Position numbers and translations under genes: made by a program
Notes under the pieces: model-generated
Told to the model about the DNA's origin: nothing
Databases searched by the model: none
The model's input: the letters and a program-made list of their open reading frames with translations, nothing else
Source: Basidiobolus meristosporus CBS 931.73
Lineage: Eukaryota > Basidiobolomycota > Basidiobolomycetes > Basidiobolales > Basidiobolaceae
Direction of reading: 5' to 3'
NCBI GenBank assembly: GCA_002104905.1
Contig: MCFE01000074.1
Span: 121,106 to 185,105, forward strand
DNA length: 64,000 nucleotides
Shown here: positions 2,327-64,000 of the stretch, one piece after another
How positions within the stretch are numbered: position 1 is the stretch's first letter
How the letters are laid out: the number at the start of each line of letters is the position of its first letter

Positions 2327-2674
2327 TGTTTTAAAAAACTTTAATTCCACCTAAATATTTACCTAGCTTAGTCACTTAGAAAATTACCTTCAAGTCCTAG
2401 AGAATACTGAGAGAATTCCTTGTTGGGATTTACTAAGAATATTATCACCAAAATACCAGGTACCTAGAGCATGAAAAATCTCAAAGTTGTCCAAACAGCC
2501 CCAAACTTTTCACACATGTTCTTGGGATCTTCCTTAATCTATTCTATTCTTTTGCTATGCCAAGATCATGTAAAAGTATTAATAATACTTTTACATTCAA
2601 TAGATCATTAAGTGAAAACCACGTAATCTACTTGTCCTCCTAATCACATTCAATATCTCCAAGACTCTTACAGC
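2327..2674 (+). repeat. Copia LTR shared by copies A and B (348 bp)
   Basis: This block matches the LTR at 6995-7342 along its whole length and has the same size, 348 bp. It starts TGTTTTAA and ends TTACAGCA, a decayed form of the TGTTGTAA/TTACAACA terminal inverted repeat. One LTR separates the RNase H end of copy A from the gag of copy B, so the two elements share it as in an LTR-LTR recombination array. Confidence 0.88.
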
Positions 2675-5600
2675 AATAACTACCAAGTGTGGAAAGTGAA
2701 GATGAAGATGCTGCTACAAGAAAGAGGTTGTTGGGATATTGTCATGGGAGAAGAAGGCTCTCCTAAAAATGAGGGAGAGGAAGCCCTAAAGTACCATTAA
2801 TTCCTCTTTTGTTAATATCAGAGACAAGTTGCTCATTCAATGCCCAAGAGCAAAAACAGCAAAGAATGCCTGGAAGGCATTAGAAGACACATACTGGTCA
2901 TGCTCAGCTGCCAAGAAAATGTGACTTAGGCAAAAAATTCTAACCACAAAGATGCTGCCAGGAGAAGAAAGAAAATCTAATCAACAGAGTTACCCCGCTG
3001 GTTGATGTGATGGAATCTGTGGGAGTACCAGCCACTGATGAAGATGTAATAGTAATTTTCCTGAATAATCTGACAGAAAAGCTTCAGGGCCTTGTATCAG
3101 CCCTAGAGTCCAGAACTAAATATTTGACCTCAAATTAAATATATGGTAGGCTCCTGGATGGAGAATTACAAATATCATGCCCCAGCACAAAGGAAGGGGA
3201 AAATGCATTGGTAAGCAATGATTACCAACAAAGAAGATATCCAGGACCGTTTAAAGGCAGTACCAATTTGTTTTGCAACTACTACAAAAGGAGAGGACAC
3301 ACATCAGACCAGTGCTTCAAAAAGAGAAACAGTCAGCAGAAAATGCCTGAATATGGAAATGCTGCAACAACTGAACATATACTACTCATATCTGCACTAA
3401 ATATGACCACATACAAGGAATCTCAGGCATAGTATATTGACTCTGGAGCATCTCAACACTTTACATACCAAATAGGACTTTTTACCTAATATCAAGAAAT
3501 TTCAATAAAGAAGGTTTTCATGGGTGACAATAGAACACTTGATGCAGTGTGAGAAGAAACTATCCAAGTAAAACTTAGAAGCAGTGCGGGAAGCCATACA
3601 CTGACCTTTAAATGAGTACTCTATGTACCAGAAATAGCCAAGAACCTACTATCTGTAAGCAAGGCCACAGCAGAAGGACTCAGTTTCAGTTTTGACAATT
3701 CTGGATGCAGGATCACTGATCAAATGGTGCCCATATTGCTCTGGGCATCAGAGATCAGAATTTATGCAAGTTGACTTATATTCTACCATATCTGGAAGCC
3801 AACATAAGTAACTTAAATGAAGAAACACCAATACTTTGGCACAGGAGATATGGGCTCATCAATTTTGACTATTTGCACAAATGATGAAAGATTGGCTAAT
3901 TTCTGGAGTAAAAACTGATCCCCCAGCTATTTTGCAGCACTGTGAAGTCTGCATATATGGGAAAAAAGCCAGACAACCATTCAAGAGCTCTGGGTTAATC
4001 AAAATTGGAAAAAATCAGATTTAATTTACTCAGATCTGTGTTAACCTATGCAAAATTTGTCCTCAGGTGGGATGAAGTATTTAATCACTTTTATTAATGA
4101 TTATACAAGAAACGCATGGGTCTACTACATAGAGAGAAAGGAAGTAGCACTGTTTAAGCCCAGGGAGTTTGAAGCTGTGGCGTATAGAGAAACTGGTGAA
4201 AAGATCAAGAAAATACGCTCTGACAATGGTGGAGAATATCCCTCAAAACACTTCATCCACTCCTGCAAAATTCATGGGATAAAGCAAGAGACCACTGTAC
4301 CATACTTCCCACAGCAAAATGGAGTAGCCATACATGCAAGCAGATTAATAATGCATATGTCAAGATCTATGATCCATGATCAAAAATTATCCTATGATTT
4401 TTGACCAGAATCAGTTGCCACAGCTGTATACCTTAAGAATAGCAGTTATAGCAAAATACTTTGTGATTCTAAACCATTTGAAGCATGGTATGGGTACAGA
4501 CTAAGTGCAGAACATCTAAGAATATTTGGGTGTACAGTGTATGCCAAGAAACTGCCTGGATATCAGCCAAAATTTGAGCCATAAAGTGTAAAATGATTAT
4601 TTTTGGGCTACTGCCATGAGGGTAAAGCATACAGACTCTACAATACCAATGTAAAGAAGGTAATCAAGCTCAGGGATGTGTTGTTTGATGAAAATTCAAA
4701 ATTTTCACAAAAAATGCCATCAGATGATGACAAATTCTGATCACATGCCCACTAATTGGCAGGATTGAGTCAGAGCAAAACATCAGAATTTTTCACTCCA
4801 GAGAACTCTACAACTGTGGTTTAGTCTGAATCAGTGCTTGGGAATATCCCAGAAGTGATAATTCCAGTATCTTATGCCCAGAGATCCCACTGGACAAGAA
4901 ATAGCCCAAATTACTATATCAATAATGGTACAAACTTAGTCTATGCAAATTCAGTCCATATTGATGAGCCCTAGACTGTAAAAGAGGCCCTAAATAGCCC
5001 TCAGACAAGGTTTTGGAGACCTGCAATGACTGAGGAATATCAGGCCCTGATGGAAAATCAAACTTGGGACATGGTCAAATAACCAATCAACCAAAAATAA
5101 TTGGATGCAGATGGGTTTTCAAGACAAAATACAACGCTGATGGTACAAATGAAAGATACAAAGCTAGACTTGTGCCAAAAGGATACTCTCAAACAAAAGG
5201 ACTGGACTATACCAAGACCTTTGCACCTGTAGCCCAGTTTAACTCCATCAGATCAATATTGGCTATTGCAGCCCAATATAAGTTTTTTATTCATCAAATG
5301 GATGTAAAAACTGCATTTCTGAATGAAGAACTTGATGAGGTTGTGTATATGAACCAACCTGATGGGTTTGCTGACCAAGATAACCCCCATTTGGTCTGCA
5401 AGCTCAAAAAATCTCTATATGGTCTCAAACAATCACCAAGAGCCTGGAATTGCAACTTAGATTCTTATTTGGAGTCTTTGAGTTTCAAAAGGAGTAATGC
5501 TGAATATAGTATTTACTATAAGCCAGATAGAGCAAATCCAGCTCTATTAGCTCTATATGCGGATGATCTTATTATAGCCACCAATAACCTAGCAACATTG

Positions 5601-6546
5601 GAAGAGACTAAATCCAGCCTATCTAAGGAGCTCAAGATGTTCAATCTGGGAGAACTCAGTTACTACTTAGGGATTAAGTTCTCCATAGACAGAAGTACAC
5701 AGACTATCATCCTAAGACAATCCAAGTATTTTCAAGGAATACTAAAGAAGTACCAAATGAAAGACTGTAAACCAGCAGCTACCCCAATGGACACAAACCA
5801 TAACTTGGTCAAAACTCAACCAAACCAAGAGAGCTTGGTGCCATCTGAAAGCCCTGATCTTCCTTATCAATATATGGTCAGCAGTCAGATGTATATCAGG
5901 CTTGGAACATGTCTAGATATCTCACATTGAGTTGGAGTTGTCAGCCAGCATAAGCAGAACTGTGGATATGATTATATTGCAGCAGTTGAGCAGATTTTTA
6001 GATACCTAAAAGGAGCTGCTAATATCTGCTTAAGATGCACTAATAAGGATTTAGAGCAGGATTTTGTGGGATACTCTGATGCTGATTGGGGACAAAATTT
6101 GGAAGATAGATGATCCACCACAGGAAACATCTTTCTTTACTGTAAAGGAGCAATTTCATGGAACTCAAGAAACCAACCAACCATAGAACTTTCTACCACA
6201 GAGGCAGAGTATATGACTGCCTGTGAAGCTACAAAAGAAGCACTGTGGTTAAGAAAGCTTTTTACAGATTTAGGCCTAGATCAAAAAATGCCTATTACAT
6301 TATTTCAAGATGATCAAGGATGTATACAATTAGGTAGAAATCCAGCTTTTGATGCTACAGCTAAGTACATAGATATTAGACATCATTTCACATGTGAAGC
6401 TATAGAGAATATGTAGTTAACTTAGTTTACTGTCCTTCAGATGAAATGATTGCAGACATATTTACCAAACCATTTGCTAGAGACAAGTTTGAATATCTTA
6501 GGTCAAAATTAGGACTAGTCAGTATGAACATTTAGTGGTGTGGGAG
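2675..6546 (+). mobile_element. Ty1/copia retrotransposon copy B, degenerate
   Basis: The internal region runs gag (about 2675-3430, with the CCHC knuckle near 3280-3320), protease (DSGASQHFT-like, 3440), integrase (about 4030-4500), RT (5064-5930) and RNase H (about 6070-6480, ending DIFTKPFAR). The primer-binding site and roughly the first 90 bases of gag present in copy C are missing; the LTR joins gag directly. Many stops and frameshifts break it. The longest intact piece is the 288-codon RT frame at 5064-5930, where the catalytic loop reads YADDLIIA. Confidence 0.92.
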
Positions 6547-6708
6547 TGCTGTAAAAATTTGTAAATCCACCTAAATATTTACCTAACTTGGTTGCTTAGA
6601 ACATTACCTTCAAATCACAGGGAATACTGGCCAAATTCCTTGTCAGGATTTACTTAGAATATTTTCACCAAAATACCAGGTACCCAGAACATGAAAATCT
6701 CAAAGTTA
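6547..6708 (+). repeat. Truncated copia LTR, 3' side of copy B
   Basis: Begins TGCTGTAAAAATTTG after a purine-rich stretch and matches the first ~160 bp of the 348-bp LTR. It then stops abruptly at CTCAAAGTT, where inverted gag sequence begins. The same breakpoint occurs after copy C (11326-11488). Confidence 0.85.
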
Positions 6709-6994
6709 TTAGCATTATGGCAGGCTTATTGTGGGATCCTGTCAGCTGATCCAGATTGGATCTGCGCACAGGACCAAGTTATTTTTATAGGGATTTCCTA
6801 TTGAAGAATTTTCTGCTTCCTCATGTCAAAGCCTGATTTTTTCAATCATCATCCAGGAGTCTTTGATATACATAATTCAATGCCAAGTACTCAGCCTGGG
6901 ACTCTAGAGCTGATACAAGATCCTGAAAACTTTCTGTCAGACCACTCTGGAGGGTAACTATCACTTCTCCATGAGCTGTTTGCACTCTCAATAA
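6709..6994 (-). mobile_element. Inverted gag fragment of a related copia element
   Basis: Read on the minus strand this resembles copia gag: it matches the section of copy C encoding the run around LVSALESR (about 7850-7940) but with many differences, so it comes from a related family rather than a flipped piece of copy C. It is joined to the truncated LTR on the left and cut on the right by the LTR of copy C. The same inverted block, longer, follows copy C. Confidence 0.82.
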
Positions 6995-7342
6995 TGTTGT
7001 AAAAATTTGTATTTCCACCTAAATACTCACCTAACCTAGTCACTTAGATCATTACCTTCAAATCCTAGAGAATACTGACCAAATTCCTTGTTGGGATTTA
7101 CTTAGAATATTATCACCAAAATACCAGGTACCCAGAACATGATAATTCTCAAAGTTGTCCAAACAGCCCCAAACTTTGCACACATGTTCTTGGGACCTTC
7201 CTTAACCTATTCTATGTGTTTTTAATGCCAAGACCAGGTAAAAGTATAAACACTACTTTTACATTCAACAAATCATAAGTGAAAACCACATAATCTACTT
7301 GTCCTCCCAATCACTGCCAATATCTCCAAGACTCTTACAACA
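6995..7342 (+). repeat. 5' LTR of copia copy C (348 bp), best preserved
   Basis: The ends are TGTTGTAA and TTACAACA, an exact 8-bp inverted repeat starting TG and ending CA. Length 348 bp. It is followed at once by GGTTATGAGCC, a plausible tRNA primer-binding site. Related copies are at 2327-2674, 6547-6708 (partial), 11326-11488 (partial) and 54772-55119 (solo). Confidence 0.92.
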
Positions 7343-7346
7343 GGTT

Positions 7347-8390
7347 ATGAGCCTCAAGCTGTCACTCTCTGCAATGTCTACTACTGCTATTACTGGAATT
7401 TTTCCCTCTGCTGAAAAGTTGGATGGCTCTAACTATCAAGTGTGGAAGGTGAAGATGAAGATGCTGCTACAAGAAAGAGGCCTCTGGGATATTGTCATGG
7501 GAGAAGAATGCCCTCCTAAAAATGTGGGAGAGGAAGCCTTAAAGTACCAGAAGAAAGAACAAAGTGCCTTTAACTGCATTTGCCTTAATGTCAAGGACAA
7601 ATTGCTAATTCAATGTTCAAGAGCAAAAACGGCAAAGAATGCCTGGAAAGAATTGAAAGACACCTACCAGTCATGTTCAGCTGCCAAGAAAATGTATCTG
7701 AGACAAAATTTCTTTACTACAAAGATGCTGCCAGGAGAACAAATGAAAAATCTAATTAACAGAATTACCCTGCTGGTAGATGAGATGGAATCTGTGGGTG
7801 TACCAACTACTGATGAGGATGTGATAGTTACCATCCTGAATAGCCTGACAGACGAGTTTCAGGGCCTTGTATCAGCCCTAGAGTCCAGAACTGAAGATTT
7901 GACCTTAAATTACGTATATGGAAGGCTCCTGGATGAACAATTAAGAAAATCAAGCGCCAATAAGAAGGAAGAAGAAAATGCTTTATTAAGCAATGATAAC
8001 CAACAAAGGAGGTACCCAAGACCCTACAAAGGCAACAGCAACCTATTTTGCAACTACTGCAAAAGGAAAGGACACACATCAGACCGGTGTCTCAACAAGA
8101 AAGATAAACAGCAAAAGAAGCCTGAATATGGAAATGCTGCAACAACTGAAGATAGACTATTCATATCTGCACTAAATATGACCACAAACAAGGATTCTCA
8201 GACGTGGTATATTGACTCTGGAGCTTCTCAACACTTTACACACCAAAAAGAACTTTTTACCCAATATCAAGAAATTCCAATTAAGAAGGTTTTCATGGGT
8301 GACAATAGAACACTTGATGCAGTGGGAGAAGGAACTATCCAAGTAAACCTTAGAAGCAGTGAAGGAAGCCATACACTGACCTTTAAATGA
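7347..8390 (+). pseudogene. Copia copy C gag-protease frame
   Basis: The ATG at 7347 overlaps the putative primer-binding site and opens a frame of 347 codons. It holds a gag domain, a CCHC zinc knuckle at about 8050-8092 (C-x2-C-x4-H-x4-C) and the aspartic protease motif WYIDSGASQHF near 8205-8235. The frame stops at TGA 8388-8390 just before VLYVP, where copia polyproteins normally continue. The same TGA sits at the matching place in copy B (about 3613), so it predates their separation or is read through. Confidence 0.85.
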
Positions 8391-8823
8391 GTACTCTATG
8401 TACCAGAAATAGCCAAGAACCTACTCTCTGTAAGCAAGGCCACAGCAGAAGGACTCAGTTTCAGTTTTGACAATTCTGGATGCAGGATCACTGATCAAAA
8501 TGGTGCCCATATTGCTTTGGGCATCAGAGTTCAGAATCTATACAAGTTGACTTATATTCCATCATACTTGGAAGCCAATATAAGTAACTTAAATGAAGAA
8601 ACACCAATGCTTTGGCACAGGAGATTTGGACACATCAATTTTGATTCTTTGCGTAAAATGATCAAAGATCAGCTAATTTCTGGAGTGAAAATTGATCCCC
8701 TGCTAATTTGGAGCACTGTGAAGCCTGCATATATGGGAAACAAGCCAGACAACCGTTCAAGAGCTCTGGGTTAATTAAAACTAAGAAAAATTAGATCTAA
8801 TTCACTCAGATCTGTGTGGACCT

Positions 8824-9861
8824 ATGCAAAATTTATCCTTAGGCGGGATGAAGTATTTAATCACTTTTATTGATGATTACACAAGATACACATGGGTCTA
8901 CTTCATGGAGAGAAAGGAGAAGGCTCTGTCTAAGCTCAGGGAGTTTAAAGCCATGGTGGAGAGAGAAACTGGTGAAAAAATCAAGAAAATATGCTCTGAC
9001 AATGGTGGAGAATATAGCTCAAAACGCTTCATCCACTTCTGCAAAATTCATGGGATAAAGCAAGAGACTACTGTACCATACTCCCCACAGCAAAATGGAG
9101 TAGCAGAACAAGCTAACAGATCAATAATTGATATGGCAAGATCTATGATCCATGATCAAAGATTATCCTATGATTTTTGGGTGGAATCAGTTGCCACTGC
9201 TGTATATCTTAAAAATAGGAGTTATAACAGAATACTTTGTGATTCTACTCCATTTGAAGCATGGTATGGATACAGACCAAGTGCAGAACATCTAAGAATA
9301 TTTGGGTGCACAGCATATGCCAAAAAACTGGCCGGAAATCAGTCAAAATTTGAGCCAAAAAGTGTAAAATGCATATTTTTGGGCTACTGCAATGAGAGTA
9401 AGGCATACAGACTCTACAATACCAAAGCAAAGAAGCTGATCAAGTCCAGGGATGTGTTGTTTGATGAAAATTCAAAATTTTCACAAAAAATGACATCAGA
9501 TGATGACAAAAATTTGATCTCAAGTCCACCAATTGTCAGGATTGAATCAGAGCAAAACAATGAAAATTTTTTCACTCCAGAGGACTCTACAACTGTGGTT
9601 CATCCAGAATCAGTGCCCAGGAATATCCCAGAAGTGATCATTCCAGTATCAAATGCCTGGAGATCCAATCAGACAAGAAATAGCCCAAATTACTATATCA
9701 ATGAGGGTACAAACTTAGCCTATGCCTATTCAGTCCATATTGATGAACCCCAGACTGTAAAAGAGGCCCTAAATAGCCCTCAGACAAAGTTTTGGAGATC
9801 TGCAATGAGTGAGGAATATCAGGCCCTGATGGAAAATCAAACTTGGGACATGGTCAAATAA
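8824..9861 (+). pseudogene. Copia copy C integrase frame
   Basis: A 345-codon frame carrying the integrase core. It shows the central aspartate region (TFIDDYTRY), SDNGGEYSSKRF, and the PYSPQQNGVAEQ segment with the catalytic glutamate, followed by the copia-specific GCTAYAKKL and FLGYCNESKAYRLY segments. The upstream HHCC part is in another frame because of decay near 8700-8800. The frame closes at a TAA in the WDMVK stretch; RT follows in a different frame from 9843. Confidence 0.85.
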
Positions 9862-11260
9862 CCAATCAACCAAAAATAATTAGATGCAGATGGGTCTTCA
9901 AGACAAAATACGAGGCTGATGGTACAATTGAAAGATACAAAGCAAGACTTGTAGCCAAAGGATACTCTCAAACAAAAGGACTTGACTATACTGAGACCTT
10001 AGCACCAGTAGCCAAGTTTAACTCCATCAGATTAATATTGGCTACTGCAGCCCAATATAAGTTTTTTATTCATCAAATGGATGTAAAAACTGCATTTTTG
10101 AATGGAGAACTTGATGAGGACGTGTATATGGACCAGCCTGATGGGTTTGTTGACCAAGATAACCCCCATTTGGTCTGCAAGCTTAAAAAGTCACTATATG
10201 GTCTCAAACAATCACCAAGAGCCTGGAATTGCAAGATAGATTCTTATTTGAAATCTTTGAGTTTCAAAAGAAGTAATGCTGACTATAGTATATACTATAA
10301 GCCAGATAGAGCAAATCCAGTTCTATTAGCTCTATATGTGGATGATCTTATTATAGCCACCAATAACCTAGAAACATTGGAAGAAACTAAATCCAGCCTA
10401 TCTAAGGAGTTCAAGATGTCTGATCTAGGAGAACTTAGTTACTACTTAGGGATTAAGTTCTCCATAGACAGAAGTACCCAGACTATTACCCTAAGCCAAT
10501 CCAAGTATATTCAAGATATACTAAAGAAGTACAAAACGGAAGACTGTAAACCGGCAGCTACCCCAATAGAGACAAACCTTAACTTGGTCAAAACTCAACC
10601 AAATCAAGCAAGCTTGGTGCCATCTAAAAGCCCTGACTTTCCTTATCAATCTATGGCCGGCAGTCTGATGTATATTATGCTTGGAACATGTCCAGATATC
10701 TCATATTCAGTGGGAGTTGTCAGCCAACATAATCAGAACTATGGATCTGATCATATTGCAGCAGTTAAGCAGATTTTTAGATACCTAAAAGGAACTGCTG
10801 ATAATTGCTTAAGATACACTTATAAGGACTCAGAACAAGATCTTGTGGGATACTCTGATGCAGATTGAGGATGAAATTTAGAAGACAGAAGATCCACCAC
10901 AGGATACACCTTTCTTTACTGTAAAGGAGCAATTTCATGGAATTCAAGAAAGCAACCAACTGTAGCACTCTCTACCACAGAGGCAGAGTATATGGCAGCC
11001 TGAGAAGCTACAAAAGAAACAATGTGGTTAAGAAAGCTTTTTACAGATTTAGGCCTATGTCAAAAAACGCCTATTACTTTGTTTCAAGATGATCAAGGAT
11101 GTATACAATTAGGTAGAAATCCAGCTTTTGATGCTACAACTAAGTATATAGATATTAGACATCATTTCACATGTGAAGCTATGGAGAATATGTAGTTAAT
11201 TTAGTTTACTGTCCTTCAGATGAAATGATTGCAGACATATTTACCAAACCATTTGCTAGA
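9843..11260 (+). pseudogene. Copia copy C reverse transcriptase-RNase H
   Basis: RT motifs are clear: [44 protein letters not shown], the catalytic YVDDLIIA near 10330, and SYYLGI. RNase H starts about 10840 (YSDAD) and is broken by TGA at 10867 and again near 11003; the frame continues through TTEAEYMA to the DIFTKPFAR end at about 11255. It lies in a different frame from integrase, with a short overlap. Confidence 0.87.
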
Positions 11261-53956: not shown

Positions 53957-54028
53957 GCCTGCTTAGCGCAGTGGTAGCGCGTCAGTCTCGTAAACTGAAG
54001 GTCGCCAGTTCAATCCTGGCAGTAGGCA
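53957..54028 (+). tRNA. tRNA-Thr (CGT)
   Basis: A 72-nt cloverleaf. The acceptor stem GCCTGCT pairs with AGTAGGC (one G-T), the D stem GCGC/GCGC, the anticodon stem TCAGT/ACTGA around loop CTCGTAA, and the T stem GCCAG/CTGGC around TTCAATC. The anticodon CGT is at 53989-53991, after the invariant T33; it reads ACG threonine codons. No intron. A T-rich stretch follows the gene by a few bases. Confidence 0.93.
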
Positions 54029-54147
54029 TAATTTTGCATCTTGATGTTGATCAATTTATTTCCAGCAAATTTTCAAAATTCCCATAACTCTGCTCGCTTA
54101 TGCTTACACATGGTATAAGAAGTTGTGGGGGCCATTTCGTATGTCAA

Positions 54148-54173
54148 GTTCTTCGGGACCTCTGACACTTGAA

Positions 54174-54204
<31 letters not shown>

Positions 54205-54259
54205 GGCCCCTGCACAAGGATGACACGTAAATCTTGAGTGGACACCTCTTCGGAGGTCA
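54148..54259 (+). ncRNA. U6 spliceosomal snRNA
   Basis: The central core is unmistakable: GGAACGATACAGAGAAGATT (ACAGAGA box pairing with the 5' splice site), then AGCATGGCCCCTGC and AAGGATGACACG (the AGC catalytic triad and internal stem-loop). The 5' stem-loop GTTC-TTCG-GGAC sets the likely start at 54148. The 3' part departs from the common form: a hairpin GACACCTC-TTCG-GAGGTC precedes the T run. No intron interrupts the RNA. The gene lies 120 bp downstream of tRNA-Thr on the same strand. Confidence 0.95.
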
Positions 54260-54267
54260 TTTTTTTT
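54260..54267 (+). terminator. RNA polymerase III terminator of U6
   Basis: Run of eight T on the coding strand directly after the terminal hairpin. Confidence 0.85.
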
Positions 54268-55119: not shown

Positions 55120-55192
55120 AATATCAGGTATTCAGAACATGAAAATTCTCAAAGCTGTCAAAACAGCCCCAAACTCATCACACATGTTCTTG
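55120..55192 (+). repeat. Second copia LTR fragment
   Basis: Matches the middle part of the LTR (from ATACCAGGTACCCAGAACAT to CACATGTTCTTGGG) and stops at the TTGGG where the first LINE piece begins. Confidence 0.8.
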
Positions 55193-55556
55193 GGGGGGGG
55201 GAGAGAGCCACCAACAGGTGAAATCTTTATTTCAGTTGAAACAAAGAAGCCAGTGCTACTGTTGTAGCTTTGATACAAGAGTGTGCAGCCAAGGGGAATT
55301 TGTAAGTGAGCTAACAAGAAGTGATGATAGTTCTTTAGTGCTCAAGACACTGTTCAGTGGGAAGGGTGGTAGCAAGAGGGGTAAGAATGATTTGTGAGCA
55401 ACATTAATGAGGGGAATTTGATATGAATTGATACTCATCATGAAGGGAGTGTGCTGCTTCAGATATTGCTGCCAAAGGTCAGTCAAGTACTTCAGGTAAG
55501 CCAGCTTGGGTTTTTCTGACAGCAGAATATAGGGAGCAAACTTCTTGACTTCAGGA
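55193..55556 (-). mobile_element. 5'-truncated LINE unit a (ORF2 C-terminus and 3' UTR)
   Basis: On the minus strand it encodes the last ~100 residues of the LINE ORF2 also found in units e and h (LKYLTDLWQQYL, HKSFLPLLLPPFPLNSVLS), then the 3' hairpin and a run of C. Its 3' end abuts the TTGGG of the LTR fragment and its cut 5' end abuts TTAGGGGGG of the next unit. Confidence 0.85.
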
Positions 55557-55600
55557 TTTAGGGGGGAGACAGTCACCAACAGGTGAAATCTTTATTTCAG
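55557..55600 (-). mobile_element. LINE 3'-tail-only unit b (about 43 bp)
   Basis: Consists of little more than the LINE 3' end: TTAGGGGGG, AGACAGTCACCAACAGGTGA and ATCTTTATTTCAG on the plus strand, then TTAGGGG of the next unit. It is an extreme 5' truncation. Confidence 0.8.
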
Positions 55601-55955
55601 TTAGGGGAGGGAAAGTCACCAAGGTTGGTGAAGTCTTTATTTGATTTCAGACAAGTCTAACTACAAATAAAGAAGCCAGTAGGGAATAGAAGATTCCCAA
55701 AGTAAATACTAAGTTGAATATGAAAAAATCCAAGCTAAAGTTAAGGCAGTATCCCAGAGTACACTGGAGTTCAGGTTCATGGGGGAGTGAAATAAATAAG
55801 CTTGAGGGATATAATAATCTTTAAGGAAGTGGGTAACAGCAGGTGAAGGTGAGTTTCTGATAAGTGAAGTAAATCTAGAGAGCAGAGATTCTTCTAATGA
55901 GAAGGTCTTGTAAACTGGAGAATCAGGAAACTCTTTAAAGGCATGTCGAGTAGGT
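55601..55955 (-). mobile_element. 5'-truncated LINE unit c, different family
   Basis: It starts TTAGGGGAGGG on the plus strand and carries the shared 3' hairpin (TCACCAA/TTGGTGA) and AATAAAG. On the minus strand an open frame of about 80 codons from the right edge ends at TAG 55711-55709; it does not match ORF2 of unit h, so it is the ORF2 end of a second LINE family. Confidence 0.72.
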
Positions 55956-56487
55956 GTAGGGGGAGGAAAGTCACCAAGTGGTGAAATCTTTATTTACTTA
56001 TGACAAGTATCTAAAGAAGCCAAGTTAATCTGAAGTTATTCCTAGAAAGCTAGATCTGAAAGATATCTTCCTGGTAAGCCAGGTCTGCGAGTTGAGAAGC
56101 TGAGTGGTACTATATTTCCTAGTTAGCTAGGTCTGAGAGAGGTTTCCTGGAAAGCCAGGCCTGAGAAGTTAGAATTTGAATATATCTCAGCTAAGGTATG
56201 CTGGTTTGCGGTAGCTGAATTGTGACCGGAATGGCCAGTAGACTGGGGGAACTGAGCGGAATTTCTGGGCAATCACTGGCCAAATTTACTAGGCAAATCT
56301 GGCCAATTAGCATTTCAAGGATTTCTGCCAATCAGAGCCTTTACTTTGCCCAATGGTTGATCAAGCCATCTCCCAATGAGCACACATCAATTTATTAATC
56401 AAATTTTGCTGGATCCAGGATTTGAACCCACAACCATGGGTATGGAAGGGTTAGGGATAACCACAAGGCTAAGTGTTCTTGGTTAGG
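55956..56487 (-). mobile_element. tRNA-derived SINE, copy d
   Basis: About 530 bp, nearly identical to 59363-59890. The 5' end (right side, minus strand) has a pol III A-box-like TAGCCTTGTGG and a B box GGTTCAAATCC spaced as in a tRNA. The body has four short hairpin repeats and the 3' end the hairpin, AATAAAG and C-tract shared with the LINEs. Its right edge meets GGTTAGGG. Confidence 0.85.
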
Positions 56488-56493
56488 GTAGTG

Positions 56494-59360
56494 CTAGGGG
56501 GGGAGACAGTCACCAACAGGTGAAATCTTTATTTCAGTTGAAACAAAGAAGCCAGCGCTACTGTTGTAGCTTTGATACAAGAGTGTGTAGCTGAGGGGAA
56601 TTTGTAGGTAACTTAATAAGAAGTGATGATAGTTCTTAAGTGCTCAAGACACTGTTCAGTGGGAAGGGGGGTAGCAAGAGAGGTAAGAATGACTTGTGAA
56701 CAACATTAATGAGGGGAATGTGATAAGGATTGATATTCATCATAAAGGGAGTGTGCTGCTGCAGATATTGCTGCCAAAGGTCTGTCAAGTACTTCAGGTA
56801 GGTTAGCTTGGGTTTTTCTGACTGCAGAATGTAGTGAGCAAACTTCTTGACTTCAGGATCTCCAAGTATAGTTCTCCAGCAGGAGCCAGGTGTTGTGTGG
56901 TGTGTTCTCTTCCAGGCCTTAATCAGTGGGTTGTTGCAGTTGTGAAGTCTGAGGTATAATCTGGTTCTAAGGTAGAGAAGTCTGATCTTATAGGGCATAA
57001 GCCCAAAAGCACGAAGAATAGCATGTCTATAGGGGCATTCAGGCAAATGAGGCACCAAGGAGGTAATGCACCATACTGCAAACTTCTCAAGCTTAGTGCA
57101 GTCTCTAGAAGTAAGAGAGAGAAGTGGTAAGCCAAATTCCAGGACAGGGAAGACAAACTGCTTGAGTAGAAGGAGGCAGCTGGGAGCTGAAGTTGTAGGA
57201 GGAGTAACAGCCAGTAGCTTGTGGAGTGCCTGTCTTGCCAGGATAATTCTCTTCTTCAGGTGTGCTCCAGAGTCTAGTCCAGTAGGAAGGAAAGGAAAGC
57301 CAAGATATGTAGCAGAAACCTGAGCAGGTGGAGTGGAGTTCTCCAAGTTGATGGGAGAGCCCAAAGGTACTGTCTTTGCAATGGAAAGCTGAAGATTATT
57401 CTTCTGCAGATACTGGTGGATGGTCTGGGAGTCTTGTTGCACATTGGAGGAGGATATTCTGATGTCATCAGCAAAGACAGTAACCAGGCAGTCAGCTGAG
57501 AGTTTTGGGAAATCATTCAGGAAGATCGCAAACAGTTTAGGACCAAGCACAGAGCCTTGAACCACTCCATTAGGAACTGAGAACACAGCTGATTGCTCAC
57601 TTGGGTGCAGAATTCTTGCATGTGGATCCAGAAATAGAGACCTGACAAGGAGGGTGAGAGAGGTACTGGAGAAGCATTGCAACTTGGACCAAAGCAGATT
57701 TCTGTCAACTGAATCAAAGGCCTTAGTAATATCAAACAGAACTGAGGGATACTTGCACTGGAGAGAGTGATCTTGGCAAAGTATGACTGCATATTCCAAG
57801 GAGAGGCCAGGAACAAAGCCAAACTGTGCAGAATGAAACTTGAGGGAGTCAGAGTAGAGCTCCTGAGCAAGCAGTAGCTCAAACACCTTTCTGCAGGTGG
57901 GCAGCAGAGATATTGGCCTGTAGGAGCTAGGATCCAGGTGCTTTCCTTTACCCTTGTACAGTGGCAGAACATTTGCAAAGGACCATTCCTCAGGAGTAGA
58001 AAGCTGGGCTGAGCATTGCTGAAACAGTGGAAGCAGAAGTGCAGACATGGCCTTGGTACTAGTCTTCAGAAGCTCATAGGAGATTGTGTCCACACCTGGA
58101 GCAGTAGAGTTGGGAAGCCTCTTGAGTACATTATGGATTCTCCCTTGATCAAGTGCAAGTGGGATGGGCAGAGTCTTGAAGTCAGGATGAAAGCCAGGAG
58201 TTGAGTACTGCTTTGTAGAGAAGAAGATGTTAGCCAGCTGTTCTGTTGAAGGTAACTTCCTGGAAGAGGGCCTCATTGCCCTGTAGAGTCTTGATACTGT
58301 TCTTGTTATAGAGTTGGAAGATTGCAGAGGCAAGGAACTCATAATATGATCCCAGAGCTGAGTATGCAGTGTGTGATGAATTGCCATGGAGTGGTGTATT
58401 GCTGTCAGGAAGAGTTTCTCTGTTTTTGGGTTAGGGAAACTCAGGTAGCTTTGTTGCAGGGCTGAAACAATGGATTCTCATTTTCTTGAGGTAACAGCAG
58501 TAGTCTTGCATGGCAGTGAGAGGGAGGCAGACACCAGAATCAGATGCTTCACAAAGAGCCAGGCATAGTTGAGATCATCTGGCAGAGAAAGTAGCAAACT
58601 GGCAAGCTTCAAGTAGTTCCCAAAGTCTTTCTTCTGATTCTTGGTAGCTTTGTGGGTGAGCACAGTAAGTTTTGGCAGCTTCTTCTTCACAACAGGTTGC
58701 ATAGAAAGGGACCAGGCTGGGTGGTCAGAGGCTCTCAAGGATCCTAGCTCAGCTCCAGAGAATTGCTTAACTTCATCCACAAAGTAGAGGGCAGCAGCAG
58801 AAGGGCAGATCCAGTCAACACATCTTTTCTCAGATTGAGCACCTAGTGCTAGCAGATGGCTTTCTCTCAGGAAGTTCAGTAGCAATGTAGACCTTGGCTT
58901 CATTCTTGCAGTCAGAGTAGTCTTGTTCTCAGGATGGGGAATGTTGAGATCTCCAAGCAAGATAACAGGTGTTGATATAGATTGCTGGTATTGTTGAACT
59001 TTCTGGCATATAACTTGCACTTCCTGAAGGGCACAACTTGGAGGCAGATAGCAGAGCACCAGACTGATAGTTGGTAACTGGAGAGCAGCACAGTAAGGGG
59101 AGTAAAGAGGAACACAGAGCTGAGGAGTATTGATGGTAGAAGAGATGAAGCAGATAGAGGAGGTATTCTTTGTTCTAGGAGTAGAAAAGCAATATAGATT
59201 AGTCAAAAGTATAGAGGGTAGCTGGACATCAATCAATCACCGGAGGGAAAATCTTGAAAGAAGTCTCTCTAGAGTTGGTCTTGATGGCTGTATGCTGTTG
59301 CAGTTAAGCAACAGAACTTCAGGTAGTCAGGCAGAGGTTGTAGCTTCTTCAGAGGCAGCA
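56494..59360 (-). mobile_element. LINE (non-LTR retrotransposon) unit e, 5'-truncated, nonfunctional
   Basis: About 2.87 kb, near-identical to unit h. On the minus strand from the right: the last codons of ORF1, TGA-CTA, endonuclease, reverse transcriptase, 3' UTR with hairpin and C-tract. The left junction reads TAGGGGGGG, the right one GCAGCAGGGTTAGGGGGGG, where SINE f begins. Confidence 0.93.
56636..59332 (-). pseudogene. LINE ORF2 of unit e (endonuclease-reverse transcriptase), two stops
   Basis: Same protein as ORF2 of unit h but closed by two point-mutation stops: one near 59240 before LIDVQLPS, and TGG changed to TGA near 58480 before ESIVSALQQ. The rest is intact, including GDLNIPH and SDHPAW of the endonuclease and the RT motifs with FADDIRISS. 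Confidence 0.9.
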
Positions 59361-59362
59361 GG

Positions 59363-59890
59363 GTTAGGGGGGGAGGAAAGTCACCAAGTGGTGAAATCTT
59401 TATTTACTTATGACAAGTATCTAAAGAAGCCAAGTTAATCTGAAGTTATTCCTAGAAAGCTAGGTCTGAGAGATATCTTCCTGGTAAGCCAGGTCTGAGA
59501 GTTGAGAAGCTGAGTGGTACTATATTTCCTAGTTAGCTAGGTCTGAGAGAGGTTTCCTGGAAAGCCAGGCCGGAGAAGTGAGAATCTGAATATATCGGAG
59601 CTAAGTTATACTGGTTTGCAGTAGCTGAATTGTGGCCGGAATGGCCAGTAGACTGGGGGAACTGAGAGGAATTTCTGGGCGATCACTAGCCAAATTTACT
59701 AGGCAAATCTGGCCAATTAGCATTTCAAGGATTTCAGCCAATCAGAGCCTTTACTTTGCCCGATGGTTGATCAAGCCATCTCCCAATGAGCACACATCAA
59801 TTTATTAATCAAATTTTGCTGGATCCAGGATTTGAACCCACAACCATGGGTATGGAAGGGTTAGGGATAACCACAAGGCTAAGTGTTCTT
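59363..59890 (-). mobile_element. tRNA-derived SINE, copy f
   Basis: As copy d: A box and B box (GGTTCAAATCC, about 59830-59840 read on the minus strand), four hairpin repeats at about 59450-59575, and a 3' end reading CCACTTGGTGACTTTCC then seven C and TAA. Both SINE copies end at the same base on the right (CTTGG before TTAGGG), suggesting full-length 5' ends. Part of the 3' sequence matches LINE 3' ends. Confidence 0.87.
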
Positions 59891-60162
59891 GGTTAGGGTG
59901 TAGGTGTTATAGTAAGGGCTAGGACAAGGTTAGAAGAGCAGGGGGTCTGGGGGACGCAGTCCCCTAGAGAATAAAAAAGCAGGGGGTTTGGGGGATGCAA
60001 TCCCCCATACTGCTCTTATACTCTTTAAATTCCCGTTGGATTACTTTTCTCTCATTCTTGGTTCTGGTCCCTTAGGGTTAGAATTCCTCCTCCTAACCCT
60101 TATCACCCTAACCATAAATATTTTTACCCTACAATTGGCACATTGTCTGCTCATATGGTGGG
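59891..60162. repeat. Subtelomeric repeat, inner copy
   Basis: About 270 bp beginning TTAGGGTGTAGGTG; repeated at 63545-63816. It contains two G-rich hairpins (GGGGGACGCAGTCCCC and GGGGGATGCAATCCCCC, each after AGCAGGGGGTYTG) and internal CCCTAACC pieces. Confidence 0.9.
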
Positions 60163-60594
60163 CATGTCTGGGCCAATATTTGTCTCCCTATACTGTCCAT
60201 ACGCTCTGTATAAGTCTTGATGACTATTTAATTAATAAATTGTTATTTTTAATATATATCTAATAATTAGTGGGATTCATCCCAATCTGACCACAATCCC
60301 ATATTTTGATAAGCTTCGGGCACCATAAATTGCGCGGCCCTAATATGATAAAAAAATTCATGGCCAATACAAATTTTCTGTAACCCGATTGCTTTTACCA
60401 AATATAAAGTGTATCTAAAAGTTCAATATATATTATGGCTATAATAGAAACTTTATTTGACACCATTGCAACTACTACTTATGTTCTATGCGCACATGTA
60501 TCCCGCGGGAATTGTAAAACTTAGCCACGTGGTACAAAAGTGCTTTAATTTTTCATCATGATAGTTTTACATGAGTTCCTAACGCACTTTGAAA
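60163..60594. other. Unique subtelomeric spacer
   Basis: About 430 bases, AT-rich, continuing the inner subtelomeric repeat. The outer copy lacks it because the telomere starts there. No gene recognised. Confidence 0.5.
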
Positions 60595-60659
60595 GTTAGG
60601 GGGGGAGACAGTCACCAACAGGTGAAATCTTTATTTCAGTTGAAACAAAGAAGCCAGTG

Positions 60660-63428
60660 CTACTGTTGTAGCTTTGATACAAGAATGTGTAGCTGAGGGG
60701 AATTTGTAGGTAAGTTAATAAGAAGTGATGATAGCTCTTCAGTGCTCAAGACACTGTTCAGTGGGAAGGGGGGTAGCAAGAGAGGTAAGAATGACTTGTG
60801 AACAACATTAATGAGGGGAATGTGATAAGGATTGATGTTCATCATAAAGGGAGTGTGCTGCTGCAGATATTGCTGCCAAAGGTCTGTCAAGTACTTCAGG
60901 TAGGCCAGCTTGAGTTTTTCTGACTGCAGAATGTAGTGAGCAAACTTCTTGACTTCAGGATCTCCAAGTATAGTTCTCCAGCAGGAGCCAGGTGTTGTGT
61001 GGTGTGTTCTCTTCCAGGCCTTAATCAGTGGGTTGTTGCAGTTGTGAAGTCTGAGATATAATCTGGTTCTAAGGTAGAGAAGTCTGATCTTATAGGGCAT
61101 AAACCCAAAAGCACCAAGAATAGCATGTCTGTAGGGGCATTCAGGCAAATGAGGCACCAAGGAGGTAATGCACCATACTGCAAACTTGTCAAGCTTAGTG
61201 CAGTCTCTAGAAGTAAGAGAGAGAAGTGGTAAGCCAAATTCCAGGACAGGGAAGACAAACTGCTTGAGTAGAAGGAGGCAGCTGGGAGCTGAAGTTGTAG
61301 GAGGAGTAACAGCCAGTAGCTTGTGGAGTGCCTGTCTTGCTAGGATAATTCTCTTCTTCAGGTGTGCTCCAGAGTCTAGTCCAGTAGGAAGGAAAGGAAA
61401 GCCAAGATATGTAGCAGAAACCTGAGCAGGTAGAGTGGAGTTCTCCAAGTTGATTGGAGAGCCCAAAGGTACTGTCTTTGCAATGGAAAGCTGGAGATTA
61501 TTCTTCTGCAGATACTGGTGGATGGTCTGGGAGTCTTGCTGCACATTGGAGGAGGATATTCTGATGTCATCAGCAAAGAGAGTAACCAGGCAGTCAGCTG
61601 AGAGTCTTGGGAAATCATTCAGGAAGATGGCAAACAGTATAGGACCAAGCACAGAGCCTTGAACCACTCCATTAGGAACTGAGAACACAGCTGATTGCTC
61701 ACTTGGGTGCAGAATTCTTGCTTGTGGATCCAGAAACAGAGACCTGACAAGGAGGGTGAGAGAGGTACTGGAGAAGCATTGCAACTTGGACCAAAGCAGA
61801 TTTCTGTCAACTGAATCAAAGGCCTTGGTAATATCAAACAGAACAGAGGGATACTTGCACTGGAGAGAGTGATCTTGGCTAAGTATGACTGCATATTCCA
61901 AGGAGAGGCCAGGAACAAAGCCAAACTGAGCAGGATGAAACTTGAGGGAGTCAGAGTAGAGCTCCTGAGCAAGCAGAAGCTCAAACACCTTTCTGCAGGT
62001 GGGCAGCTGAGATATTGGCCTGTAGGAGCTAGGATCCAGATGCTTTCCTTCACCCTTGTACAGTGGCAGAACATTTGCAAAGGACCATTCCTCAGGAGTA
62101 GAAAGCTGGGCTGAGCATTGCTGAAACAGTGGAAGCAGAAGTGCAGACATGGCCTTGGTACTAGTCTTCAGAAGCTCATAAGAGATTGTGTCTACACCTG
62201 GAGCAGTAGAGTTGGGAAGCCTCTTGAGCACATTATGGATTCTCCTTTGATCAAGTGCAAGTGGGATGGGCAGAGTCTTGAAGTCAGGATGAAAGCCAGG
62301 AGTTGAGTACTGCTTTGTAGAGAAGAAGATGTTAGCCAGCTGTTCTGTTGAAGGTAACTTCCTGGAAGAGGGCCTCATTGCCCTGTAGAGTCTTGATACT
62401 GTTCTTGTTATAGAGTTGGAAGATTGCAGAGGCAAAGAACTCATAATATGATCCCAGAGCTGAGTATGCAGAGTGTGGTGAATTGCCTTGGAGTGGTGTA
62501 TGGCTGTCAGGAGGAGTTTCTCTGTTTTTGGGTTAGGGAAACTCAGGTAGCTTTGTTGCAGGGCTGAAACAATGGATTCCCATTTTCTTGAGGTAACAGC
62601 AGTAGTCTTGCATGGCAGTGAGAGGGAGGCAGACACCAGAATCAGATGCTTCACAAAGAGCCAGGCATAGTTGAGATCATCTGGCAGAGAAAGTAGCAAA
62701 CTGGCAAGCTTCAAGTAGTTCCCAAAGTCTTTCTTCTGATTCTTGGTAGCTTTGTGGGTGAGCACAGTAAGTTTTGGCAGCTTCTTCTTCACAACTGGTT
62801 GCATAGAAAGGGACCAGGCTGGGTGGTCAGAGGCTCTCAAGGATCCTAGCTCAGCTCCAGAGAACTGCTTGACTTCATTCACAAAGTAGAGGGCAGCAGC
62901 AGAAGGGCATATCCAGTCAACACATCTTTTCTCAGTTTGAGCACCTAGTGCTAGCAGATGGCTTTCTCTCAGGAAGTTCAGTAGGAATGTAGATCTTGGC
63001 TTCATTCTTGCAGTCAGAGTAGTCTTGTTCTCAGGATGGGGAATGTTGAGATCTCCAAGCAAGATAATAGGTGTTGATATAGATTGCTGGTATTGCTGAA
63101 CTTTCTGACATATAGCTTGCACTTCCTGAAGGGCAAGACTTGGAGGCAGATAGCAGAGCACCAGACTGATAGTTGGCAACTGGAGAGCAGCACAGTAAGG
63201 GGAGTAAAGAGGAACACAGAGCTGAGGAGTATTGATGGTAGAAGAGATGAAGCAGATAGAGGAGGTATTCTTTGTTCTAGGAGTAGAAAAGCAATATAGA
63301 TTAGTCAAAAGTATAGAGGGTAGCTGGACATCAATCAAACACAGGAGGGAAAATCTTGAAAGAAGTCTCTCTAGAGTTGGTCTTGATGGCTGTATGCTGT
63401 TGCAGTTAAGCAACAGAACTTCAGGTAG
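60660..63428 (-). CDS. LINE ORF2 protein, APE-type endonuclease and reverse transcriptase
   Basis: Open from CTA at 63428 to TAG at 60662-60660, about 922 codons. The first ~215 residues are an exonuclease-endonuclease-phosphatase domain: LLNCNSI (first Asn), LCYLPPS, LLGDLNIPH (Asp-x-Asn), VDWICPS and RASDHPAW (final Asp-His). The usual metal-binding Glu of the QET motif seems to be Asp (CLIDVQ). The RT domain follows from about residue 400: PSSYRPISQLPT, FGFVPGLSLEYAV, DITKAFDSVDR, NGVVQGSVLGP and the catalytic FADDIRISS. The C-terminal ~250 residues are helical and lack a CCHC finger. No AUG lies near the start; the frame is continuous with ORF1 across a single UGA. Reverse transcription would be primed at the insertion site. 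Confidence 0.93.
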   Translation of the reverse strand, partial: LPEVLLLNCNSIQPSRPTLERLLSRFSLLCLIDVQLPSILLTNLYCFSTPRTKNTSSICFISSTINTPQLCVPLYSPYCAALQLPTISLVLCYLPPSLALQEVQAICQKVQQYQQSISTPIILLGDLNIPHPENKTTLTARMKPRSTFLLNFLRESHLLALGAQTEKRCVDWICPSAAALYFVNEVKQFSGAELGSLRASDHPAWSLSMQPVVKKKLPKLTVLTHKATKNQKKDFGNYLKLASLLLSLPDDLNYAWLFVKHLILVSASLSLPCKTTAVTSRKWESIVSALQQSYLSFPNPKTEKLLLTAIHHSKAIHHTLHTQLWDHIMSSLPLQSSNSITRTVSRLYRAMRPSSRKLPSTEQLANIFFSTKQYSTPGFHPDFKTLPIPLALDQRRIHNVLKRLPNSTAPGVDTISYELLKTSTKAMSALLLPLFQQCSAQLSTPEEWSFANVLPLYKGEGKHLDPSSYRPISQLPTCRKVFELLLAQELYSDSLKFHPAQFGFVPGLSLEYAVILSQDHSLQCKYPSVLFDITKAFDSVDRNLLWSKLQCFSSTSLTLLVRSLFLDPQARILHPSEQSAVFSVPNGVVQGSVLGPILFAIFLNDFPRLSADCLVTLFADDIRISSSNVQQDSQTIHQYLQKNNLQLSIAKTVPLGSPINLENSTLPAQVSATYLGFPFLPTGLDSGAHLKKRIILARQALHKLLAVTPPTTSAPSCLLLLKQFVFPVLEFGLPLLSLTSRDCTKLDKFAVWCITSLVPHLPECPYRHAILGAFGFMPYKIRLLYLRTRLYLRLHNCNNPLIKAWKRTHHTTPGSCWRTILGDPEVKKFAHYILQSEKLKLAYLKYLTDLWQQYLQQHTPFMMNINPYHIPLINVVHKSFLPLLLPPFPLNSVLSTEELSSLLINLPTNSPQLHILVSKLQQ

Positions 63429-63540
63429 TCAGGCGGAGGTTGTAGCTTCTTCAGAGGCAGCATTGACAATGTGACCTGCAGAGTCCCAGAGCTCTTCAAA
63501 TGGTGCATCACTTAAGTCAGCAAGGAGGGAAATGGCATGG
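63429..63540 (-). CDS. LINE ORF1 C-terminal fragment, ends at UGA
   Basis: Thirty-six codons open to the truncation point, ending with SEEATTSA and TGA at 63431-63429. Unit e keeps the same end with a synonymous change (TCC to TCT, serine), which supports coding. ORF1 of LINEs usually encodes an RNA-binding protein; too little remains to tell its type. Confidence 0.68.
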
Positions 63541-63544
63541 TTAG

Positions 63545-63816
63545 GGTTAGGGTGTAGGTGTTATAGTAAGGGCTAGGAAAAGGTTAGAAGAGCAGGGGGT
63601 CTGGGGGACGCAGTCCCCTAGAGAATAAAAAAGCAGGGGGTTTGGGGGATGCAATCCCCCATACTGCTCTTATACTCTTTAAATTCCCGTTGGATTACTT
63701 TTCTCTCATTCTTGGTTCTGGTCCCTTAGGGTTAGAATTCCTCCTCCTAACCCTTATCACCCTAACCATAAATATTTTTACCCTACAATTGGCACATTGT
63801 CTGCTCATATGGTGGG
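63545..63816. repeat. Subtelomeric repeat, outer copy
   Basis: Near-identical to 59891-60162, including both G-rich hairpins. It ends at GGTGGG, where the terminal telomere repeat begins; the inner copy continues past this point. Confidence 0.92.
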
Positions 63817-64000
63817 TTAGGGTTAGGGTTAGGGTTAGGGTTAGGGTTAGGGTTAGGGTTAGGGTTAGGGTTAGGGTTAGGGTTAGGGTTAGGGTTAGGG
63901 TTAGGGTTAGGGTTAGGGTTAGGGTTAGGGTTAGGGTTAGGGTTAGGGTTAGGGTTAGGGTTAGGGTTAGGGTTAGGGTTAGGGTTAGGGTTAGGGTTAG
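63817..64000 (+). repeat. Telomere, (TTAGGG)n
   Basis: 184 bases of perfect TTAGGG, about 30 repeats, running to the end of the window with the G-rich strand 5' to 3' outward. This is a true chromosome end. Confidence 0.98.

Follow-up and report, generated by a model that had tools for sequence, protein, structure and literature searches.

The window, a 64,000-nt stretch of the Basidiobolus meristosporus genome, forms the right end of its contig (C1024, positions 121106-185105 of 185105), and the genome searched for comparison comprises 89.0 Mb in 1311 contigs. Among named relatives, the one closest to a host protein of the window comes from Basidiobolus ranarum (84%). Ahead of a terminal (TTAGGG)n array, we found seven non-LTR units (a-f and h) that all have minus-strand orientation and span 55192-63540 (Table 1). 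Units b, c, d, e, f and h start, on the plus strand, with TA or TTA followed by 4-7 G and unit a with a bare G10, while a, d, e, f and h border on TTAGGG-type sequence at their 5' sides. In all of this the sequence bears out an earlier note on this DNA; its description as an array of LINEs and SINEs holds for most units, but unit c belongs to the D family, which is ORF1-only. Arrays of such telomere-bound non-LTR units are real and widespread in this genome.

Between units f and h lies an unclassified, G-rich sequence without an element-type tail, the first part of which (272 bp) recurs at 63553-63816 with 99.6-100% identity. This second copy, cut by the telomere, is possibly a recent terminal duplication. 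Genes for tRNA-Thr and U6 snRNA sit next to the array on its proximal side, the latter being 124 nt long against a 105-nt model. Ty1/copia-like frames, recognised by reading, occupy positions 1-10868 of the window, and one copia reverse transcriptase (RT) stretch has 1330 genomic matches with at most 2 mismatches, distributed evenly over both strands.

Table 1. Features of the array and its surroundings, in positions of the window
Feature	Position	Strand	Description
tRNA-Thr gene	53957-54028		just proximal to the array
U6 snRNA gene	54143-54266		
Unit a	55192-55557	-	LINE-A 3' fragment, 5'-truncated; starts at bare G10 (55192-55201) after TTCTT
Unit b	55558-55600	-	LINE-A 3' end, 43 nt; TTAG6 junction
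Unit c	55601-55956	-	fragment of D family (ORF1-only), assigned by tail and frame; TTAG4 junction
Unit d	55957-56482	-	SINE, full-length; TAG5 junction; 5' end GTTCTTGG joins TTAGGG
A box and B box of unit d	56418-56471	-	pol III type
Unit e	56495-59359	-	LINE-A, 5'-truncated; TAG7 junction; endonuclease and RT in two frames
Unit f	59364-59892	-	SINE, full-length; TTAG7 junction
A box and B box of unit f	59828-59881	-	pol III type
Unclassified subtelomeric sequence	59899-60595	+	697 nt, between units f and h
Unit h	60596-63540	-	LINE-A, 5'-truncated; TTAG7 junction
LINE-A ORF2 of unit h	60660-63428	-	922 aa; predicted APE-type endonuclease fold, then RT
LINE-A ORF1 of unit h, C-terminal end	63429-63540	-	same frame as ORF2
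Telomeric tract	63541-63552	+	TTAGGGTTAGGG, 5' side of unit h
Second copy of unclassified sequence	63553-63816	+	truncated, ends at telomere
Terminal telomere array	63814-64000	+	(TTAGGG)n, perfect, 187 nt, 31 repeats

Families with a common 3' tail and the proteins of LINE-A

Searching the genome for the 3' tail of these units, GTCACCAA-loop-GGTGAARTCTTTATTT, we obtained 1507 copies. The families sharing it are an APE-type LINE with ORF1 and ORF2 (LINE-A), a second LINE lineage present as fragments, ORF1-only elements and a SINE; a hand count of loop types in the first 100 of the 1507 tails gave 51 LINE-A-like, 30 SINE-like, 12 D and 7 C. In all four tails that were folded (LINE-A, SINE, C and D), a hairpin, UCACC/GGUGA, stands beside a C run, and compared with shuffles this fold is clear for the LINE (z -3.9) and the SINE (z -2.6), weak for D (-1.8) and no better for C (-1.0). 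The C run, seen as a G run on the plus strand, is present at 123/123 distinct junctions parsed. Its commonest length is 7 in the LINE, 6 in the SINE and 4 in D and C.

The SINE tail is 79% identical to that of LINE-A over 42 nt, with the same hairpin, and the A and B boxes gave two matches versus none in 100 shuffles; Rfam tRNA models did not match the SINE head at E values up to 10. An internal pol III promoter and a tail common to a LINE of the same genome would make this, judged from sequence, a LINE-dependent SINE. Among the ORF1-only elements, the D and E families encode ORF1-like proteins that are 35% (140 residues) and 25% (208 residues) identical to LINE-A ORF1, respectively. In the copies read, the reading frames of both families end close to the tail, with no RT between frame and tail, and such an ORF1-type protein without RT before the tail would place them in the HeT-A-like gag-only type. 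The C family carries an ORF2 C-terminus 33% identical to that of LINE-A over 81 residues, and further loci carry ORF2 pieces 36-41% identical, with no tail linked to these pieces.

LINE-A ORF2 matches RVT_1 (E 7e-25), and its best match among PDB sequences is human L1 ORF2p (E 5e-12), so that its reverse transcriptase is, by homology, of the non-LTR type. For the N-terminal domain a structure model was used, because the matching profile search relied on an alignment of distant LINEs and was weak for the window; phmmer with the endonuclease region found no match among PDB sequences. Foldseek places the modelled domain in the AP-endonuclease-like (APE) fold, with an APE1 chain first and the TRAS1 endonuclease second, the match to TRAS1 being tied with the R1 endonuclease and APE1. 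The LINE-A endonuclease is thus predicted to be APE-type, keeping the APE fold and most motifs, and the restriction-like endonuclease motifs C-X1-3-C-X6-8-H-X3-4-C, RHD/N and R/K-P/A-D are absent from ORF2. A missing catalytic Glu had raised the suspicion of a dead endonuclease; this is weakened by the alignment, in which the Glu column is Asp in all three family proteins covering it (the window ORF2, P0001 and P0003).

ORF1 and ORF2 of LINE-A share one frame, with a single TGA between them that precedes CTA (63429-63431, minus strand), and the same stretch is kept in five loci (L001, L024, L026, L030 and L101). TGA CTA is a context favourable for stop-codon readthrough, and LINE-A ORF2 has no early Met. 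LINE-A ORF1 (L132, 24-1370, minus strand) contains a zinc-ribbon-like CPNC...CKC stretch and a coiled coil; its Pfam matches, including a transposase ribbon and bZIP, were all below the cut-off.

Position, orientation and junctions across the genome

Genome-wide, the tails occur on the two strands in a ratio of 1386 forward to 121 reverse, whereas the copia control is balanced (667:663), and the 173 copies of the SINE 5' motif AGTGTTCTTGGTTAGGG divide 167:6. Strand counts alone are no proof, because the contigs are unevenly oriented and telomeric repeats are mostly forward, with 6568 forward and 68 reverse matches to (TTAGGG)6. In a separate listing of array starts, 100 of 111 were given, on about 96 contigs, nearly all forward.

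Among the 42 best LINE matches, from 40 scored of 805 candidates, 39 lie within 10 kb of a contig end that their 5' side faces. Of the first 100 tails, all 37 on the 11 contigs longer than 100 kb are nearer the end they face, 32 of them within 10 kb, and 10% of the length of these contigs falls in their two 10-kb ends; on 18 small contigs, 53/63 tails are nearer the facing end. Copia matches in the same 11 large contigs are mostly (16/21) more than 10 kb from either end, the remaining 5/21 being somewhat above the 10% expectation. C291 and C979 carry arrays on opposite strands at their two ends, and probably C424 does so too. The other 3/42 LINE copies are internal or wrongly oriented (C558 and C726, with TTAGGG at the 3' junction, and C217, with TAG7) and recall the internal relics described for MoTeR elements of Magnaporthe (PMC7367193, in the text available). 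We rejected an assembly artefact as the cause of the contig-end placement, since assembly breaks at repeats would not give the copies a common orientation and the arrays of C291 and C979 are opposed. Insertion by the endonuclease at any single TTAGGG anywhere in the genome was likewise rejected as the main route: tails are terminal and in one orientation, and copia is strand-balanced.

An exact TTAGGG lies within 12 nt of the tail core in 1200/1507 cases (80%), compared with about 0.3% by chance (13/4096), and 307/1507 tails have no exact TTAGGG at the junction. Thus subtelomeric position, one orientation relative to the nearer end and TTAGGG at the 3' junction, which the earlier note had expected of copies throughout the genome, were all obtained, and among the 42 LINE matches the numerous internal copies in both orientations without TTAGGG that would have contradicted it did not appear.

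The junctions were surveyed at 106 places in the examined loci, among which LINEs are over-represented because the loci were mostly retrieved with LINE queries; 123 junctions were distinct in their last 40 nt. The 106 places divide into 89 with TTA plus a G run, 10 with TA plus a G run and 7 others. Where the inward neighbour could be identified (49/106), it was a LINE, SINE or D element in the same orientation in 46 cases, unclassified sequence in 2 and a subtelomere in opposite orientation in 1.

Strict telomeric tracts between units are short, with a median of 8 nt, and 118/123 are at most 12 nt long. By comparison, 20 terminal arrays span 134-297 nt with a median of 206 nt, and random insertion into 206-nt arrays would give about 6% of tracts of 12 nt or less. 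Therefore, elements joined by tracts of one or two repeats are not landing randomly in normal telomeres, a shortness that the model of the earlier note does not predict. The endonuclease might nick duplex TTAGGG within the telomere, in the manner of SART and TRAS, with the distal telomere lost or longer tracts purged later. The preserved APE fold and most motifs would suit this, as would the breakage of tracts of three or more repeats reported for MoTeR arrays (PMC7367193, as far as its available text goes); against it, the catalytic Glu column holds Asp in the family proteins and only 3/123 tracts reach at least 18 nt, and we consider this route unlikely.

The element itself might also template the TTAGGG, its RNA ending in CCCUAA by read-through into the adjacent unit and the RT starting by microhomology on any free 3' end or jumping between RNAs. 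One perfect TTAGGG unit is indeed the rule (71/106 junctions). However, tracts start in all six phases, most measuring 4-12 nt and three 22-44 nt, and across the genome as many as 67 junctions hold at least three repeats, which makes such templating quite improbable.

Recombination is a further means of multiplying arrays: with retrotransposition rare, unequal exchange, break-induced replication and the healing of ends at interstitial TTAGGG could have carried a few founding insertions to many chromosome ends. The duplicated 272-bp block of the window would suit this, one SINE-LINE junction is identical at several places, and the tract ceiling of about two repeats is the same as that described for stable MoTeR arrays, which themselves spread by recombination and healing at interstitial TTAGGG (PMC7367193, in the part available). 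We saw no transposition event, and arrays could be copied by recombination as well. Nevertheless, the 23 LINE neighbours have 22 distinct breakpoints. Moreover, in the junction of full-length SINE, TTAGGG and LINE that recurs identically at four of the 106 places, the SINE parts of the five places with both flanks available are 94.9-99.0% alike (a difference of 1-5%) and the LINE parts 99.5-100%. Because the SINE parts diverge more than the LINE parts, the LINE was added to different SINEs, and we rejected block copying of the pair in favour of separate LINE additions. As the source of the arrays as a whole, spread from a few founders is therefore distinctly unlikely.

Telomerase and the proposed growth of the arrays

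Full-length SINEs end in GTTCTTGG, followed by TTAGGG. For the truncated units, 48/123 5' flanks could be mapped, and after dropping 10 with 1-5 extra nt and 7 full-length SINE ends, 31 were usable. In-frame seeds of 1-5 nt are present at 27/31 truncated junctions and seeds of at least 2 nt at 17/31, an excess over random joins in which all bases are used equally (P about 7e-7 and 6e-7, respectively, for copies of which some may be allelic and non-independent). Seeded truncated 5' ends joined to TTAGGG fit telomerase healing, as predicted; for truncated MoTeRs, telomerase healing with seeds in 17/23 is described in the available text of PMC7367193. The genome encodes a TERT RNA-binding domain (C880), in two pieces above the cut-off, one with an in-frame TAG. 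Twenty terminal ends were chosen in which a base other than G precedes the array; 9 of them have a LINE, SINE or D element directly before the telomere in the expected orientation, one has an inverted subtelomere and the rest are unclassified; with a longer LINE reference, 11/21 terminal ends were mapped.

In three loci, L093 (C58), L105 (C249) and L107 (C285), the telomere starts directly in other sequence, namely an inverted subtelomere or, by eye, a tRNA-like stretch or the coding region of an LTR element, which suggests broken ends healed by telomerase.

As an explanation of the whole, including position, orientation, junctions, shared tail, coding domains, TERT domain, seeds and independent LINE additions, we favour reverse transcription that uses the TTAGGG 3' end as its primer and is followed by telomerase healing, with a probability of about 0.72. 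Against it count the short tracts, the 307/1507 tails without an exact TTAGGG, the three internal or wrongly oriented LINE copies, and the terminal ends, of which no more than 9/20 (11/21 with the longer LINE reference) have an element next to the telomere. LINE-A would provide the machinery, with an APE-type endonuclease and RT in ORF2 and a separate ORF1, while the SINE and ORF1-only elements would ride on LINE-A or on the second LINE lineage through the shared 3' hairpin and C run. The RNA would pair through its 3'-terminal C run with the last GGG of the telomeric G-strand, a pairing that the variable G run fits. Extension of the telomeric 3' end by the RT would then place the 3' end of the element on the inner side. 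Frequent early stops of the cDNA would leave 5' truncations, telomerase would add TTAGGG to the new end from short in-frame seeds, and the next element would join that short tract. Priming and telomerase resealing had both been proposed in the earlier note; junctions, TERT domain and seeds agree with them, and it is from the junctions that we infer the two steps.

Several circumstances could keep the tracts short under telomere-primed reverse transcription: elements may be added to nearly bare ends, telomerase may make a single pass, or longer interstitial tracts may be lost afterwards by breakage. Since the MoTeR ceiling is the same, the ceiling here may reflect either the history of addition or survivorship. 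Much more tentatively, and with considerable doubt on our part, chromosome ends might grow by alternation of two reverse transcriptases: telomerase would extend each cDNA end by roughly one template length (4-12 nt), and a telomere-bound consortium of LINEs, gag-only elements and a SINE would preferentially use this short tract as substrate, entering it without endonuclease cutting. If true, this would be a mixed telomere maintenance by telomerase and retroelements in an early fungal lineage, with the first telomere-dedicated SINE.

Relation to other telomeric retroelements

Telomeric LINE arrays are known in fungi, namely MoTeR, FoTeR and CNL1, with whose first two the Basidiobolus LINEs agree in telomeric position, outward 5' end and telomeric repeat at the 3' junction. 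MoTeR1 and MoTeR2 of Magnaporthe/Pyricularia oryzae are alike in being telomeric and head-to-tail with the 5' end outward, in their TTAGGG tracts and internal relics, and in a non-autonomous partner with a common 3' end; stable tracts between units have at most two repeats and longer ones break (PMC7367193, available text). In contrast, MoTeR1 has a restriction-like endonuclease where Basidiobolus LINE-A, with its two ORFs, has a predicted APE-type one, and MoTeR2, which has 860 bp at the 5' side and 77 bp at the 3' side in common with MoTeR1, is not a SINE (same source and extent), whereas Basidiobolus adds a SINE with pol III boxes and ORF1-only families. FoTeR of Fusarium oxysporum is likewise terminal, with telomere-repeat junctions and the 5' end outward, but has a restriction-like endonuclease and mostly 3-7 repeats on its 3' side (PMC12857005, available part). 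CNL1 of Cryptococcus neoformans, also terminal with telomere-repeat junctions, is placed by its authors near R2 and MoTeR (PMC12810828, available part). The available parts of these two accounts mention no SINE or gag-only partner (PMC12857005, PMC12810828). SART1 and TRAS1 of Bombyx mori share with LINE-A the APE-type endonuclease, the targeting of telomeric repeats and a host that retains these repeats, and SART1 also ORF1 and ORF2 (PMC7265360, available part); they differ in a poly(A) tail and site-specific insertion in repeat tracts, compared with the C-run tail and tracts of 1-2 repeats in Basidiobolus.

The pairing of LINE and SINE in a fungus, unfamiliar to the earlier note, is accordingly novel in a narrower sense, because a telomeric LINE array with a non-autonomous partner was already known from MoTeR1 and MoTeR2; its membership is broader here. 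As far as our searches reach, what is new is the APE type, a telomere-bound SINE, the ORF1-only members and the phylum, in a combination that retains a TERT gene, and our search of the open-access literature yielded neither a telomere-bound SINE nor any account of telomeric elements in Basidiobolus. These results widen the range of telomere-bound retroelements, which now takes in Basidiobolomycota, APE-type LINEs of a fungus, and a SINE and ORF1-only members with one tail in common. With more than 1000 tail-telomere junctions in one genome, the sharing of a 3' end by telomerase and a LINE RT becomes testable, as does the question why tracts rarely exceed about two repeats, a ceiling that stable MoTeR arrays also have according to the available text of PMC7367193.

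UnaL2 and its SINE are a stringent-type pair which, like LINE-A and its SINE, share a 3' tail with a stem-loop, but they are dispersed and not known to be telomere-bound. Athena and Coprina are endonuclease-deficient Penelope-like elements associated with telomeres, and differ from LINE-A in their Penelope-like RT and in having no known APE-type endonuclease. HeT-A is gag-only, with 3' ends inward, and the telomere arrays of HeT-A, TART and TAHRE likewise set a gag-only member beside RT-bearing ones. The hosts differ in that Drosophila lacks telomerase and telomeric repeats (PMC7265360, available part), whereas Basidiobolus has a TERT domain and terminal TTAGGG arrays.
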